Source of the DNA: Planctomycetota bacterium
Lineage (GTDB): Bacteria; Planctomycetota; UBA8742; UBA2392
Assembly (NCBI GenBank): GCA_019636215.1
Contig: JAHBXZ010000001.1
Coordinates: 133,694 to 197,693, forward strand
Reading direction: 5' to 3'
Length of the DNA: 64,000 nt
Position numbers and translations under genes: made by a program. Within the stretch, counting starts at the first letter, position 1, and each line of letters opens with the position of its first letter. The notes under the pieces were generated by a model, which ran no database searches, was not told the origin of the DNA, and saw only the letters and a list, made by a program, of their open reading frames with translations. This document shows, piece after piece, positions 50,278-56,145 of this stretch.

Positions 50278-50359
50278 GAGTTCGGAGTTCTGTGTCCTGT
50301 GTCCTGAGTATCGGACCCAATGGTGCAAGCAACTCAGGACTCAGGACCCGGAACTCAGA
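50278..50359. repeat. Heptad array H6 (GAGTTCT / ACTCAGG family)
   Basis: Left arm 50278-50312: GAGTTCG, GAGTTCT, GTGTCCT, GTGTCCT, GAGTATC. Right arm 50332-50359: ACTCAGG, ACTCAGG, ACCCGGA, ACTCAGA. It ends 2 nt before the copper-ATPase start codon. Confidence 0.85.
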
Positions 50360-50361
50360 GC

Positions 50362-52629
50362 ATGTCGTCAACTCTAGACATCCGCGTGGAAGGCATGACC
50401 TGCGCCCACTGCGCCCGCAGTGTCGAAAAAACGTTAACCGAGCTGCCCGGCATCACGGCCGCCAGCGCGGATTTCGCCAGCGGCAACGTGCGCCTGACGT
50501 TGGGCGAAAACCCGCCGTCATTCGAGGTCATGACGCCCAAGGTGGCCAAGGCCGGGTACCACTTGCTGCCGCCCGACGTTGCAGCGCGCACGGATGCCGC
50601 CGATGCCGCCAATGCCGCGGCGCGCAACCATTTGATCATGCTGCTGCTGGGCGTGGTGCTGACCGCGCCAGTGCTGGCCATGGATTGGCTGCACCTGCAT
50701 GGCGCGGTCTATGACTGGCTGGCCGTGGCGCTTTCCGTGACCCTGCAGGCCACGGTGGGGCTGGTGTTCTACAAAGGCGCGATTGCCAACATTCGCTCGC
50801 GCATGCTGGGCATGGATGTGCTGGTCAGCATCGGCATGGCCTCGGGGCTGATCTATGGCGTGCTGCTGGTGGTGTTTGACTGGCCGCTGCCGGCGGGCCT
50901 TACCCGCCACGTGTTCTTTGAGGCCGCGACCTTGCTGGTGGTGTTCTTGCGGCTGGGCAAGTTTGTGGAGGCCAAGGCCCGGGGCAATGCGCTTAGCGCC
51001 CTGCGCAGCCTGCTGAGGTTGTCGCCGGAATCCGCGCGGGTGCGGCGGGGTGGCCCCGACCATCCGGGTGGGGTCCAGACCATTGCGGCCAGCGAAGTGC
51101 AGGTGGGCGAGATCTGCCTGGTCAGCCCCGGTGGGCGCGTGCCGGTCGACGGCGAAATCATCAGCGGCGCGGGCGACATGGATGAGTCCATGCTCACGGG
51201 TGAATCGGTGCCCGTGGCTCGCGGGCAGGGCGACACGGTACGCGCGGGCACCATCAGCACCAACGGCGCACTTGAGATTCGCGCCACGGCCGTGGGCAGC
51301 GGCACCGCGCTGGCCCACATTGTGCGGCTGGTAGAAGAAGCCCAGCGCAGCAAGGCCCCGATCCAGCGGCTGGCGGATCGCATAAGCAATTGGTTTGTCC
51401 CGATTGTGGTGCTTACGGCCCTGGGCGCGGGCATTGGCTGGGGCCTATCCGGCGCGGGCGCGGCCCGGGCGATCACCCATTCGATTGCCGTGCTGGTGAT
51501 TGCCTGCCCCTGTGCGCTGGGCATTGCCGTGCCCGCGGCGGTGATGATCGGCAGCGGCGCGGCCCTGCGGCGCGGCGTGCTGGTGAAAAACGGCGCGGCG
51601 CTCGAACGCATTGCCAAGGCCCGGATTTTTGCCTTCGACAAGACCGGTACATTGACCCAGGGCAAGCCCCAGGTGGCGAAGGTGATGCTGGCCCAAGGCG
51701 CGACGCAGGAACAGATGGACTCCGCGCTGGCGATAGCGTCCCAAGGGTCAAGGCACCCCTTTGCAAGGGCGTTGAACAACCAGTTCCGAGTCCTGAGTTC
51801 TGAGTCCGGTGTTGACGGCAGTGCCAACTCGGAACTCAGAGCTCAGAACTCAGAACTTTCAGTTCGCGGCTTCGAAACGCCCGGCAAGGGCCTGATCGCC
51901 ATTGCCGGCGAACGCACGATTTTGTTTGGCAGCGCAGGCTTGATGGCCGAACAGGAAGCGGCCATCCCCGCCGACTTGCAATCCCAGGCCCAGGCGGCGC
52001 GGGATGCCGGGCACAGTGTCAGCTTTGTGGCCGAGGAAACGCGGGTTCTGGGCGCCGTGGCGTTCACCGACGCCCTGCGGGCCGAGACCGCGGAAGTCGT
52101 GGCCGCGCTGCGCGCGGCGGGCGGGCGGGTGGTGCTGCTCAGTGGCGACCACGCGGCGGCAGTCGCGCGGGTGGCAAGCGCATTGGGTATCACCGAGGTC
52201 CACGCGGCGTTGAGTCCGGCCGAAAAGCTGGCGCGCATTGACGAATTGCGCCAGCAGGGCGTGACGGCAATGGTCGGCGACGGCATCAACGACGCCCCGG
52301 CCTTGGCGCGGGCGGACATCGGCGTGGCGATCGGCGGCGGCAGCGACGTGGCCAAAGAAACCGGCGACCTGGTGCTGATGAACGGCAGCCTGCGCGACCT
52401 GCCGCTGGCGATGGATTTAGGCCGCCGCAGCCTGCGCGCGATCCGGCAGAACCTGTTCTTCAGTCTCGTCTACAATGCCGTGGGTATCCCGCTGGCCGCG
52501 GGCGCGCTGGTGTTCGCGGGGGTGTTCCTGCCCCCCAGCTTCGCGGCACTCAGCATGGTCTTCAGCGACCTCAGCGTCGCCCTGAACAGCGCAAGGCTGG
52601 CCGCAGAACTTCGCAAGGCCGGCAAATAG
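50362..52629 (+). CDS. copA: Copper-translocating P1B-type ATPase
   Basis: 755 aa from ATG 50362, chosen because MSSTLDIRVEGMTCAHC is the normal beginning; an upstream ATG at 50320 would translate array H6. One heavy-metal domain with GMTCAHC, then eight membrane helices, TGES (residue ~279), CPC (~382), DKTGT (~426), HP motif in HPFARAL, and GDGINDAP (~639). Exports Cu+. Between the HP region and VRGFETPGKGL, where relatives have a short stretch, there are about 26 extra residues encoded by heptad array H7. No CopZ or CueR is nearby. Confidence 0.95.
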   Translation: MSSTLDIRVEGMTCAHCARSVEKTLTELPGITAASADFASGNVRLTLGENPPSFEVMTPKVAKAGYHLLPPDVAARTDAADAANAAARNHLIMLLLGVVLTAPVLAMDWLHLHGAVYDWLAVALSVTLQATVGLVFYKGAIANIRSRMLGMDVLVSIGMASGLIYGVLLVVFDWPLPAGLTRHVFFEAATLLVVFLRLGKFVEAKARGNALSALRSLLRLSPESARVRRGGPDHPGGVQTIAASEVQVGEICLVSPGGRVPVDGEIISGAGDMDESMLTGESVPVARGQGDTVRAGTISTNGALEIRATAVGSGTALAHIVRLVEEAQRSKAPIQRLADRISNWFVPIVVLTALGAGIGWGLSGAGAARAITHSIAVLVIACPCALGIAVPAAVMIGSGAALRRGVLVKNGAALERIAKARIFAFDKTGTLTQGKPQVAKVMLAQGATQEQMDSALAIASQGSRHPFARALNNQFRVLSSESGVDGSANSELRAQNSELSVRGFETPGKGLIAIAGERTILFGSAGLMAEQEAAIPADLQSQAQAARDAGHSVSFVAEETRVLGAVAFTDALRAETAEVVAALRAAGGRVVLLSGDHAAAVARVASALGITEVHAALSPAEKLARIDELRQQGVTAMVGDGINDAPALARADIGVAIGGGSDVAKETGDLVLMNGSLRDLPLAMDLGRRSLRAIRQNLFFSLVYNAVGIPLAAGALVFAGVFLPPSFAALSMVFSDLSVALNSARLAAELRKAGK
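51783..51861. repeat. Heptad array H7 inside the copper-ATPase gene
   Basis: Left arm 51783-51810: GTTCCGA, GTCCTGA, GTTCTGA, GTCCGGT. Right arm 51827-51861: ACTCGGA, ACTCAGA, GCTCAGA, ACTCAGA, ACTTTCA. Same 7-mer family as H6 just upstream of the gene. It is translated as roughly residues 474-500, in the nucleotide-binding domain. Confidence 0.88.
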
Positions 52630-52781: not shown

Positions 52782-52787
52782 TATAAT
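52782..52787 (+). promoter_or_regulatory. -10 box of the FG-GAP gene
   Basis: A perfect TATAAT; predicted start near 52794, about 38 nt before the ATG. No good -35 at 16-18 bp. Confidence 0.5.
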
Positions 52788-52831
52788 CCGCAGTCCCTTT
52801 GAGTGCCCCTTTGTGCGGAACAGGAGGCGTC

Positions 52832-54181
52832 ATGAACCATCTTTCTACCCTGATGCTTGTTGCGGCGGTGGCTGGGCCATCGCTGGCGGCGGCGGACTAT
52901 TCGTTTGCGCAACCGCGCATGCTCAATGGCGGCGACAAGCCCATCGAAGTTGAGGCTCCGGGCTATGCGGCACCCAGCGTCGCCGACCTCAATGGCGACG
53001 GCGTGCCTGACCTGCTGGTCGGCCAGTTTCGCGACGGCAAGATCGGCTTCTACAAAGGCAGCAGGGGCAAAGACGGCAAGCTGACGTTTGGCGCCCATGA
53101 ATGGCTGCAGGCCGGGGGCGAAGTCGCCAAAATCCCCGGCGTGTGGTGATGCACCAGCAGCACTCCACAGGTAGTGGATCTGAACGGCGACGGCTTCAAC
53201 GACATTCTCTCGGGCTGCTACAGCCAAAGCGGCCACTCGGCCATGGTGGGCAGCTACTGGGTGCTGTACGGCGACAAAGAAGGCAAGTTCGCCAAGCCCG
53301 TAGAGCTGATGGGCACTGACGGCAAACTCCTGCAGGTGGTGCACGACCTCAAGGGCTCCGCGGGCGACCGCCTGACACAGAACATCTGCTCGCGCCCCTT
53401 TGCCGTTGACTGGAATGGCAACGGGCACCTCGATATCGTCGCGGGCAATTTCGAAGGCAGCTTTTTTGTGTTCACAGGCGAGGGCAAGGGCAAGTTCGCC
53501 CCCAAGGCCGCGCAGTTGATGGACACGGAAGGCAAGGCCCTGAAGATCAGCGGCGTGCACAGTGACCCGTTCATCATTGACTGGGACAACGACGGCGACC
53601 TTGACCTGCTGACGGGCAGCAGCGACGGCAACATCTATTGGGCCGAAAACGTCCGCAGCCGCGACGAAAAGGTCACCGGCGCGGATCGCACGCCCGAACT
53701 CACGGCGCTCAAACTGCTGATCAAGGCCCCCGCAGCCAGCAAGGATGCCAGGGCGCCAAGCTATGGCCTGCGCATCTGGGCGGCCGACATCACTGGCGAC
53801 GGCAAGCTCGACATCCTGGTCGGCGATACCTTTCACGGCGGCGGCGGCATGCGCACCGACCTGACGGCGGAAGAAAAAGCGGCCTATGAAAAGGCCGACG
53901 CCGACTACCAACTGGTGATGAAGGACTACCAGGCGGCCCAGAAGCCCTACAACGACGCCTACCAGGCGGCGCTGAAGGAAGCGCGCGAAAAGGCCGGCGA
54001 CAAAGAGCTCAGCCAGGACCAGCTGCGCGCGATTTACAAGGAACACGTAACCGACAAGATGGCCAAGGATGAAAAAGTGCAGGCGGCGCTGACCAGAATG
54101 CGCGAGACGAGCGCGGCACTGAACAAGTTCCGGACCCCGGCCGTCAGCGGCGGCAACCTGTGGGTGTACGAACAGAAGTAG
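52832..54181 (+). CDS. Secreted FG-GAP/VCBS-repeat protein with in-frame UGA (probable selenocysteine 106)
   Basis: ATG 52832 follows CAGGAGG. Signal peptide MNHLSTLMLVAAVAGPSLAAA, then FG-GAP repeats with calcium-type DxNxDGxxD loops: VADLNGDGVPDLLVG, VVDLNGDGFNDILSG, DWNGNGHLDIVAG, DWDNDGDLDLLTG, DITGDGKLDILVG. A TGA at 53147-53149 interrupts an otherwise open 449-codon frame; the repeat pattern continues in the same frame on both sides (GVW-U-CTSSTPQVVDLNGDG). A SECIS-like hairpin follows. The C-terminal 110 residues are a charged coiled-coil. If UGA is not read through, two fragments remain (52832-53149, and from GTG 53174). Extracellular or surface protein of unknown role. Confidence 0.75.
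53150..53182 (+). promoter_or_regulatory. SECIS-like hairpin after in-frame UGA
   Basis: TCCAC (53164-53168), loop AGGTA, GTGGA (53174-53178), with CAG/CUG pairing below across a small internal loop. The loop begins 19 nt after the UGA (17 nt in E. coli fdhF, whose loop is AGGUCU). Confidence 0.55.
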
Positions 54182-54528: not shown

Positions 54529-56145
54529 ATGCGCATTACCACGTTTCTTCCGGCCCTGCTGCTGGTTGCGTCAACCGGCCTGTTCGTGAATTCGGGCGTT
54601 GCCCGGGCCGAGCAGATCCGGCTTTCCGACGGCCGCTTCCTGCAGGGCGACGTCGAAGAGGTCAAGGATGACGGCTTCACATTCCGCCTGACCGACAGCG
54701 GCGGCAAGGTGTTCCTGCGCTGGAACCAGGTTGATGCCGGCCTGAAGCAGCGCCTGAAGAACGAGCGCGACCCCGACGACGGCCTGAACCTGGAAGTCAT
54801 GGTTGATGGCGCGCGCCTGGAACTGCTGGATGGCTCGGTGCTGGAAGGCAGGCTGACCCGAAACGGCAACAACTACACCATCATCAACCGCGACCGCCCG
54901 CGCGGGATTGAAGTCCTGCTGGATGACATCGTCGAAGACGGCGTGATTGAAGGCATCCAGATTGAAGCCACAGTCATGATGTCCGAGCGCGAAGCGCTGA
55001 CACTGGCCGAGGAACGCCGCGCCCCGCTGGAAACCGCGCGCCAGTACTACGAAATGGCCCGCATTGCCGACCGCCTGGGCCTGTACGAAGAAGCCAAAGA
55101 TTACGTGACCCAGGGCCTGCAGGCTTCGCCGGACCAGAAGCTGCAAGCCAGGCTGACCGAATACGACGCCAAGCTGGCCGACCTGATTCGCCAGAAGGAA
55201 CTGCTGACGGCCCTGGCCGCGGCGCGGCAGCTGGGCAAGGCGCGCAAGTACCAGAAGGCGCTGGATGTGCTCAAGAATGCCAAGGACACCTACAAGCCCA
55301 CCGACGGTGTGCTGGCCAAGTGGGAAGAAGTGAACGCCGAAACCGAGCTTGAGTACACCAAGTTCGTCATCAACGAGTGGTACAAGCTGATGAAGACGGT
55401 GGTGCAGGCCAAGCTGAAGCACAAAGACAGCAAGAACATCACCGTGCAGGAAGCCATGAACTGGGCGCGTCGCGAGATGGATGTCGACATCCAGAAGCGC
55501 CTGGCGGCGATCACCGAGGGCGACCCCGCCAACATGAAGCTGCGCTTCAGCAAGCGCCACGAACTGCACGACAGCAAGGTGATCCGCCTGTCCACCAAGA
55601 AGGTCACGTTTGGCGAAGACGGCTTCTACCAGGTTGTGGGCGGGCACCTGCCGGTTGCCGGCAAGCAGCCCAACCCGACAGGATCCACCCCGGGCGCCAC
55701 ACCCAACCCGCGCGGGCCCGGCGGCGGCAGTGGCCCGGGCATCGGCCCGGGCGGCGGTGGTGGTGGCAACGGCCCTGGCGGCCGTTACCAGGGCCCGATC
55801 GACTGGGACGAGTTCGACCGTATGATGAAGGGCCAGCAGAAGGACGGCTTCCAGGACATGCCGAAGCTGCCCGACAACATCTCGCCTGACGACATCAAAG
55901 AAGCCCTGCGCAAGGCCCTGGGCGAAGACAAAGACAGCGAGAAAAAGGACGGCCCCAAGCCGACCAGCCCCGTCAAGCAGGACATCAGCAAGCTTACTGT
56001 GCCCAGCTATGTGCCCAGCCTCACCGAGTGGTGGGACAAGGGCAGCTCCACCACCCGTCAGCGCTGGCTGCTGGCGGTGTACGTCAAGTTCGGCGGCACG
56101 ATGCAGGTGCTGGAACTCGACGACTGGGACATCAAGTACCGCTAG
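54529..56145 (+). CDS. Secreted protein with tetratricopeptide-like region, unknown
   Basis: 538 aa, ATG after GGGGACACC. Signal peptide MRITTFLPALLLVASTGLFVN...ARA. An N-terminal SH3-like pair (IRLSDGRFLQGDVEEVKDDGF; LLDGSVLEGRLTRNGNNY) as in the protein at 59.1 kb, then TPR-like helices (ARQYYEMARIADRLGLYEEAKD, ALDVLKNAKDTY), a Gly/Pro-rich linker at residues ~380-425, and a C-terminal part SYVPSLTEWWDKGSSTTRQRW. The N-terminal LSDGxxLxGxV domain plus TPR plan is shared with the 376-aa protein at 59107-60237, so they are distant paralogues. Periplasmic or cell-surface. Confidence 0.78.
   Translation: MRITTFLPALLLVASTGLFVNSGVARAEQIRLSDGRFLQGDVEEVKDDGFTFRLTDSGGKVFLRWNQVDAGLKQRLKNERDPDDGLNLEVMVDGARLELLDGSVLEGRLTRNGNNYTIINRDRPRGIEVLLDDIVEDGVIEGIQIEATVMMSEREALTLAEERRAPLETARQYYEMARIADRLGLYEEAKDYVTQGLQASPDQKLQARLTEYDAKLADLIRQKELLTALAAARQLGKARKYQKALDVLKNAKDTYKPTDGVLAKWEEVNAETELEYTKFVINEWYKLMKTVVQAKLKHKDSKNITVQEAMNWARREMDVDIQKRLAAITEGDPANMKLRFSKRHELHDSKVIRLSTKKVTFGEDGFYQVVGGHLPVAGKQPNPTGSTPGATPNPRGPGGGSGPGIGPGGGGGGNGPGGRYQGPIDWDEFDRMMKGQQKDGFQDMPKLPDNISPDDIKEALRKALGEDKDSEKKDGPKPTSPVKQDISKLTVPSYVPSLTEWWDKGSSTTRQRWLLAVYVKFGGTMQVLELDDWDIKYR

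Follow-up and report, generated by a model that had tools for sequence, protein, structure and literature searches.

Described bacterial selenoproteins such as FdhF, SelD and the selenocysteine (Sec) peroxiredoxins combine an in-frame UGA, a selenocysteine insertion sequence (SECIS) hairpin 3' of it with a G in the loop, homologues with Cys in place of Sec, and a genome with selA, selB, selD and tRNA-Sec. A thioredoxin-like fold is found in the majority of characterised selenoproteins, and for prokaryotes a catalogue of 2026 counts 119 selenoprotein families and subfamilies (PMC13188914). The gene examined here lies on a stretch of 64,000 nucleotides (nt) from a Planctomycetota bacterium (assembly GCA_019636215.1, contig JAHBXZ010000001.1; the whole stretch is hereafter the window), and it shares the UGA, the hairpin, the Cys homologues and the machinery while being built on an FG-GAP propeller scaffold. 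Judged from its sequence and its relatives, it almost certainly encodes a selenoprotein, and one of a family that looks undescribed. The parts of the gene that bear directly on decoding are listed below.

52822..52827, + strand: Shine-Dalgarno AGGAGG (sequence)
52832..54181, + strand: entire selenoprotein gene of 449 codons closed by TAG, with UGA read at codon 106 (sequence, full-length homologues)
53147..53149, + strand: in-frame TGA, putative selenocysteine 106 (TGA/Cys codon in aligned homologues)
53150..53152, + strand: TGC, invariant Cys107 of the vicinal Sec-Cys pair (homologue alignment)
53164..53178, + strand: SECIS hairpin UCCAC-AGGUA-GUGGA within the coding sequence, G at loop position 2 (sequence, conservation, folding)

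The frame opens with ATG at 52832 behind the AGGAGG ribosome site, is interrupted solely by the TGA at 53147-53149, and stays open thereafter until TAG at 54179-54181, as the preliminary description of this DNA had read it, including the signal-peptide-like N-terminus. Standard gene calling of 52832-54181 yields two open reading frames (ORFs) of 116 and 335 amino acids, the second starting from GTG 53174. A TATAAT at window 52782-52787, approximately 45 bases ahead of the start codon, is a possible -10 box.

The search for homologues covered 392 Planctomycetota genomes with a first profile built from five sequences (the window gene, a relative of 81% identity, two relatives of about 55%, and a 37% copy from the same genome), while other phyla were covered by a single short-peptide scan of contigs, in which three Planctomycetota metagenome-assembled genomes (MAGs) matched. 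The TGA is kept at exact codon 106 in the 81% relative and in both of the more distant relatives, and the 37%-identical paralogue shares it at the matching codon. In the alignment of 114 distinct stretches around codon 106, the column holds TGA in 103, Cys in 7 (TGC in five, TGT in two), Thr in 1 and a gap in 3; the Thr row and the three gap rows are other propellers or second hits on the same gene. This is the outcome that had been proposed as a check on Sec at this position, and the neighbouring Cys, pointed out earlier in the motif W-U-C, proves invariant: it is present in 110/110 Sec or Cys sequences, as Sec-Cys or Cys-Cys. A wider profile of 98 rows, with places counted at E <= 1e-30, finds a family match in 102 of the 392 genomes, about a quarter, and at 134 places, 122 with exactly one in-frame TGA and 12 with none; these 12 are made up of all seven Cys forms together with two fragments and three weakly matching places in which no vicinal motif was found. 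Weaker matches in genomes G167, G266 and G319, where no Sec-Cys or Cys-Cys motif was found, were dropped as family members. The TGA forms span many families and genera and include single-contig assemblies. Just nine columns are invariant among the 98 rows (25% mean identity); residues 106 and 107 account for two, and the other seven are a single Pro together with Asp and Gly from the FG-GAP repeats. In the tree, the Cys forms fall at two separate placements, each adjoining Sec forms; the direction of change is likely from Sec to Cys, with the tree rooted at the midpoint only.

Several of these genomes hold more than one member. The second family gene of the source genome (G000:C1:291064-292086; L002:1489-2607) reads NNW-U-CIGMQPQFVD, has its own hairpin and is placed by the tree in another subfamily. 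Genome G155 has two family genes in tandem (L041) and G386 has four copies, two of them close together (L121), with UGA in all. The match in G167 (L174) is a distant propeller relative without the vicinal pair, from a genome 99% complete with no selA above cut-off.

The hairpin described earlier as SECIS-like begins its stem 14 nt and its loop 19 nt past the UGA, as had been stated, and it fits most of the published bacterial SECIS (bSECIS) model, which asks for a loop of 3-9 nt, a stem of 4-16 base pairs, a G in the first two loop positions, a distance of 16-37 nt from the UGA and a minimum free energy (MFE) of at most -7.5 kcal/mol (PMC13188914). The structural terms agree, with a 5-nt loop, a 5-bp stem, a loop that begins AG and a spacing of 19 nt. 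Across the family we compared 98 distinct 48-nt regions following the UGA with the seven Cys forms, using as a null for pairing 1000 trials in which synonymous codons were resampled by each gene's own usage. The four inner pairs (nt 16-28, 17-27, 18-26 and 19-25) are formed in 98/98 UGA-form regions, as compared with a null mean of 23.5% and maximum of 36.7%, and are kept in 0/7 Cys forms; five pairs form in 93% of UGA-form regions vs. 3% in the null. Mean pairing falls from 0.92 to 0.14-0.56 when the partner is slid by one to six positions, and UGA forms average an MFE z-score of -1.6 where Cys forms average +0.16. The codon choices follow the same lines: where Pro faces Val, Pro is CCA in 62/65 cases and the Val codon is then always GUG, with CCA making up just 7% of Pro codons elsewhere in the family genes, and where Pro faces Ala (GCG) it is CCG in 18/18 cases. 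The facing bases are A-U in 75, G-C in 19, G-U in 4 and A-C in 0. The conservation of the hairpin across the family is far beyond chance, and it comes with covariation. Within the source genome, the combined UGA and hairpin pattern occurs in only the two family genes, and a reversed-pattern control gave 0.

The source genome encodes all four components of the insertion machinery for which a search had been recommended: selA (539 bits), selB (323 bits), selD (391 bits) and tRNA-Sec (73 bits, anticodon UCA), with selA and tRNA-Sec spaced approximately 0.8 kb apart (G000:C23:145683-147894; L006, L014). Directly past tRNA-Sec, ARAGORN calls a further, unusual tRNA-like gene whose anticodon has 4 bases (L006:1643-1740). 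The selD gene (G000:C31:170525-171451; L021, minus strand of the locus) is a selenoprotein gene too, with a UGA in frame at the customary position (GAGUGCK); one can thus expect that the genome makes use of UGA recoding. Among the genomes with TGA forms, selA is over the cut-off in 89/92, and the three that lack it are 77-82% complete, with selB in two of them; selA is found in 45/80 Planctomycetota genomes without the family and in 1/7 Cys-form genomes. Six Cys-form genomes, all of one genus and 99-100% complete, have neither selA nor selB above cut-off. A lack of the machinery, homologues with neither Cys nor Sec, and a sequencing error had been named as grounds for giving up the selenoprotein, and none of these was encountered. 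The proposal of Sec insertion in an extracytoplasmic FG-GAP protein is therefore strongly supported by the TGA/Cys column, the conserved hairpin and the machinery. On this comparative evidence, SelB and tRNA-Sec(UCA) would read UGA-106 as selenocysteine under the direction of the hairpin just 3' of it, while lineages that lack the Sec machinery retain the site as Cys-Cys, with the hairpin absent.

The FG-GAP pattern that had been noticed on both halves of the frame is borne out by Pfam, with PF13517 at 83.0 bits (cut-off 26.9) and PF01839 at 50.2 bits (cut-off 22.1); FG-GAP_3 (PF13517, 2.3e-23) matches five stretches spanning both sides of the UGA. The corresponding protein features are as follows.

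52832..52891, + strand: predicted signal peptide, residues ~1-20, cleavage site approximate (sequence, signal-like N-termini of family members)
52985..53011, + strand: FG-GAP calcium-type loop, blade 1, residues 52-60 (Pfam, alignment, AlphaFold2 model)
53177..53203, + strand: FG-GAP calcium-type loop, blade 2, residues 116-124 (Pfam, alignment, AlphaFold2 model)
53408..53434, + strand: FG-GAP calcium-type loop, blade 3, residues 193-201 (Pfam, alignment, AlphaFold2 model)
53579..53605, + strand: FG-GAP calcium-type loop, blade 4, residues 250-258 (Pfam, alignment, AlphaFold2 model)
53786..53812, + strand: FG-GAP calcium-type loop, blade 5, residues 319-327 (Pfam, alignment, AlphaFold2 model)
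53867..54124, + strand: long helical (coiled-coil-like) insert in the last blade, residues 346-431 (AlphaFold2 model)

A simple hydrophobicity rule finds a signal-peptide-like N-terminus in 90/97 family members, which suggests that the N-terminus sends the protein out of the cytoplasm. The AlphaFold2 model (predicted local distance difference test, pLDDT, 92.7; predicted template modelling score, pTM, 0.88) shows five repeat loops, and its secondary structure divides into five units whose first strands are at residues 47-51, 113-115, 188-192, 245-249 and 311-318. The mature protein is predicted from the model to be a five-bladed FG-GAP beta-propeller. Going by the strand order of the model, the link from blade 1 to blade 2 carries Sec106-Cys107, and semi-conserved residues stand at the equivalent links of other blades: Tyr/His45, Cys186 (43/98) and His243 (36/94). 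This arrangement suggests that residues 45, 186 and 243 may share a common site with the Sec-Cys pair on one face.

Our best guess for the function is a periplasmic redox or soft-metal site. The vicinal Sec106-Cys107 may form a reversible selenenylsulfide/selenolate-thiol site outside the cytoplasm, which could serve either in redox chemistry or in the binding of a soft metal or metalloid. As far as the sequence can tell, we regard the chances of a redox role for the pair as evenly balanced. The alternative that Sec-Cys chiefly binds a soft metal or metalloid (e.g., mercury, copper, arsenic or silver), in a periplasmic scavenger or sensor that would still be a selenoprotein, seems unlikely, if clearly worth keeping in view. 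The residues just described bring His or Tyr, and sometimes Cys, to the connections before other blades; these extra possible ligands are not invariant, however. A heavy-metal P-type ATPase (HMA plus E1-E2 ATPase domains) is encoded at window 50320-52629, 202 bp upstream and in the same orientation, yet its place beside the gene is conserved within the genus only. Selenoproteins with a CU motif that act on organometals are known as well (SaoL, SaoC and HgcA; PMC13188914).

A number of observations weigh against the selenoprotein reading or against the function proposed for it. The hairpin of the window gene is not unusually stable by itself: the 48-nt stretch from the UGA has -10.5 kcal/mol (z +0.44), which meets the limit of the bSECIS model, and the bare 23-nt hairpin has -6.1 kcal/mol (z -1.06), which misses it. 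Since this energy is unremarkable, the case must rest on comparison. On supported branches, only a handful of covariation events count as independent (6 pairs, approximately 3.3 concordant, 0 discordant), and the sign test on branch-independent covariation is not significant, being underpowered with six changes that are concordant or neutral. One Cys-form genome, G188, does have selA. As to function, the surroundings of family members (40 regions, each up to 20 kb) showed no recurrent neighbour, and with no operon kept beyond the genus and no characterised homologue it is the vicinal Sec-Cys pair alone that points to a redox or metal role.

Other ways of reading the UGA fare considerably worse. 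In-frame UGA readthrough occurs in bacteria, and decoding as Trp, Cys or Arg by leaky readthrough or a suppressor tRNA could also join the two halves of the frame. This seems very improbable, as Cys is the sole alternative residue among family members in the codon-106 column, the hairpin is retained in UGA forms only and selA co-occurs with them, and the six Cys-form genomes of one genus are without selA and selB. A true stop, in a pseudogene or through a sequencing or assembly error, would look alike in one MAG with a lone in-frame stop and gene calls of 116 and 335 amino acids; it is already refuted by conservation, both of the hairpin and of the TGA, which 103 aligned sequences from numerous genera and families have at this codon, single-contig assemblies included, and we give it next to no weight. 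Equally negligible is the idea of two products, a short protein ending at the UGA and a second starting at GTG 53174, where the mechanical 335-amino-acid ORF indeed begins, because Cys-form homologues are single continuous frames, the split would part blade 1 from blade 2 and remove the start of blade 2 (first strand 113-115), and this GTG is accounted for by the 3' arm of the hairpin. Selenocysteine at codon 106 remains the reading to which the comparative data point.

The wider surroundings of the gene add little. The apparent clusters of common neighbours were set aside, since they look like unrelated ABC ATPases or like frames antisense to the family gene, and a plasmid search with the family gave no match. 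Directly downstream on the same strand, window 54529-56145 encodes a protein of 538 amino acids whose N-terminus is signal-like and which matches nothing in Pfam.

The preliminary description had put this forward as a kind of selenoprotein without prior description, and we likewise found none in the catalogue, in NCBIfam or in the literature. No FG-GAP, VCBS or propeller entry is named among the 119 catalogued families (PMC13188914), no model of NCBIfam release 20.0 is above its cut-off for the family protein, and full-text literature on selenoproteins with FG-GAP or with Planctomycetota held nothing relevant, candidate lists in supplements being outside the reach of that search. For two Planctomycetes, selenoprotein predictions exist from an earlier study, whose candidates are in a supplementary table (PMC4807772), and a groundwater-MAG survey is cited in a review as reporting unvalidated selenoprotein candidates. 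The family is thus apparently undescribed, with an earlier mention in a candidate list being possible.

The family brings selenocysteine to an exported propeller of the FG-GAP type whose Sec-Cys pair is invariant, a setting missing from the 2026 catalogue. Standard gene calling splits every Sec-form gene of the family at its UGA. The family may help explain why selA is retained in so many Planctomycetota. The broader proposal, that this is a large and ancient secreted family of Planctomycetota in which Sec is the rule and Cys the exception, bringing new extracytoplasmic redox or metal chemistry and helping to retain the Sec machinery, falls in our judgement just short of an even prospect. The codon choices within the hairpin (rare CCA with GUG, CCG with GCG) provide a natural test set for coding vs. 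SECIS constraints.

In comparison with known systems, no sequence relation was found between the family protein and bacterial selenoproteins in general. Fold and sequence searches of solved structures returned generic propellers alone, with CRTAC1 and integrins as the best matches and a TM-score (template modelling score) of about 0.3. With the FG-GAP/VCBS propellers (integrin alpha, CRTAC1 and the fungal lectin PVL) it shares the repeats D-x-[DN]-G-D-G-x-x-D-L (FG-GAP_3), whereas it is bacterial and secreted, with five modelled blades and the invariant Sec-Cys pair. The methanol dehydrogenases that use pyrroloquinoline quinone (PQQ) have a vicinal disulfide (Cys-Cys) in a secreted beta-propeller oxidoreductase; the adjacent Cys-Cys is alike, while the propeller type differs and no sequence relation is seen, so we take this comparison as a lead only. 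The CU-motif selenoproteins (SaoC, SaoL, HgcA-type, KCU-star and MbdU; PMC13188914) likewise have vicinal Cys and Sec, but the order here is reversed, with Sec preceding Cys, and the named domains differ.
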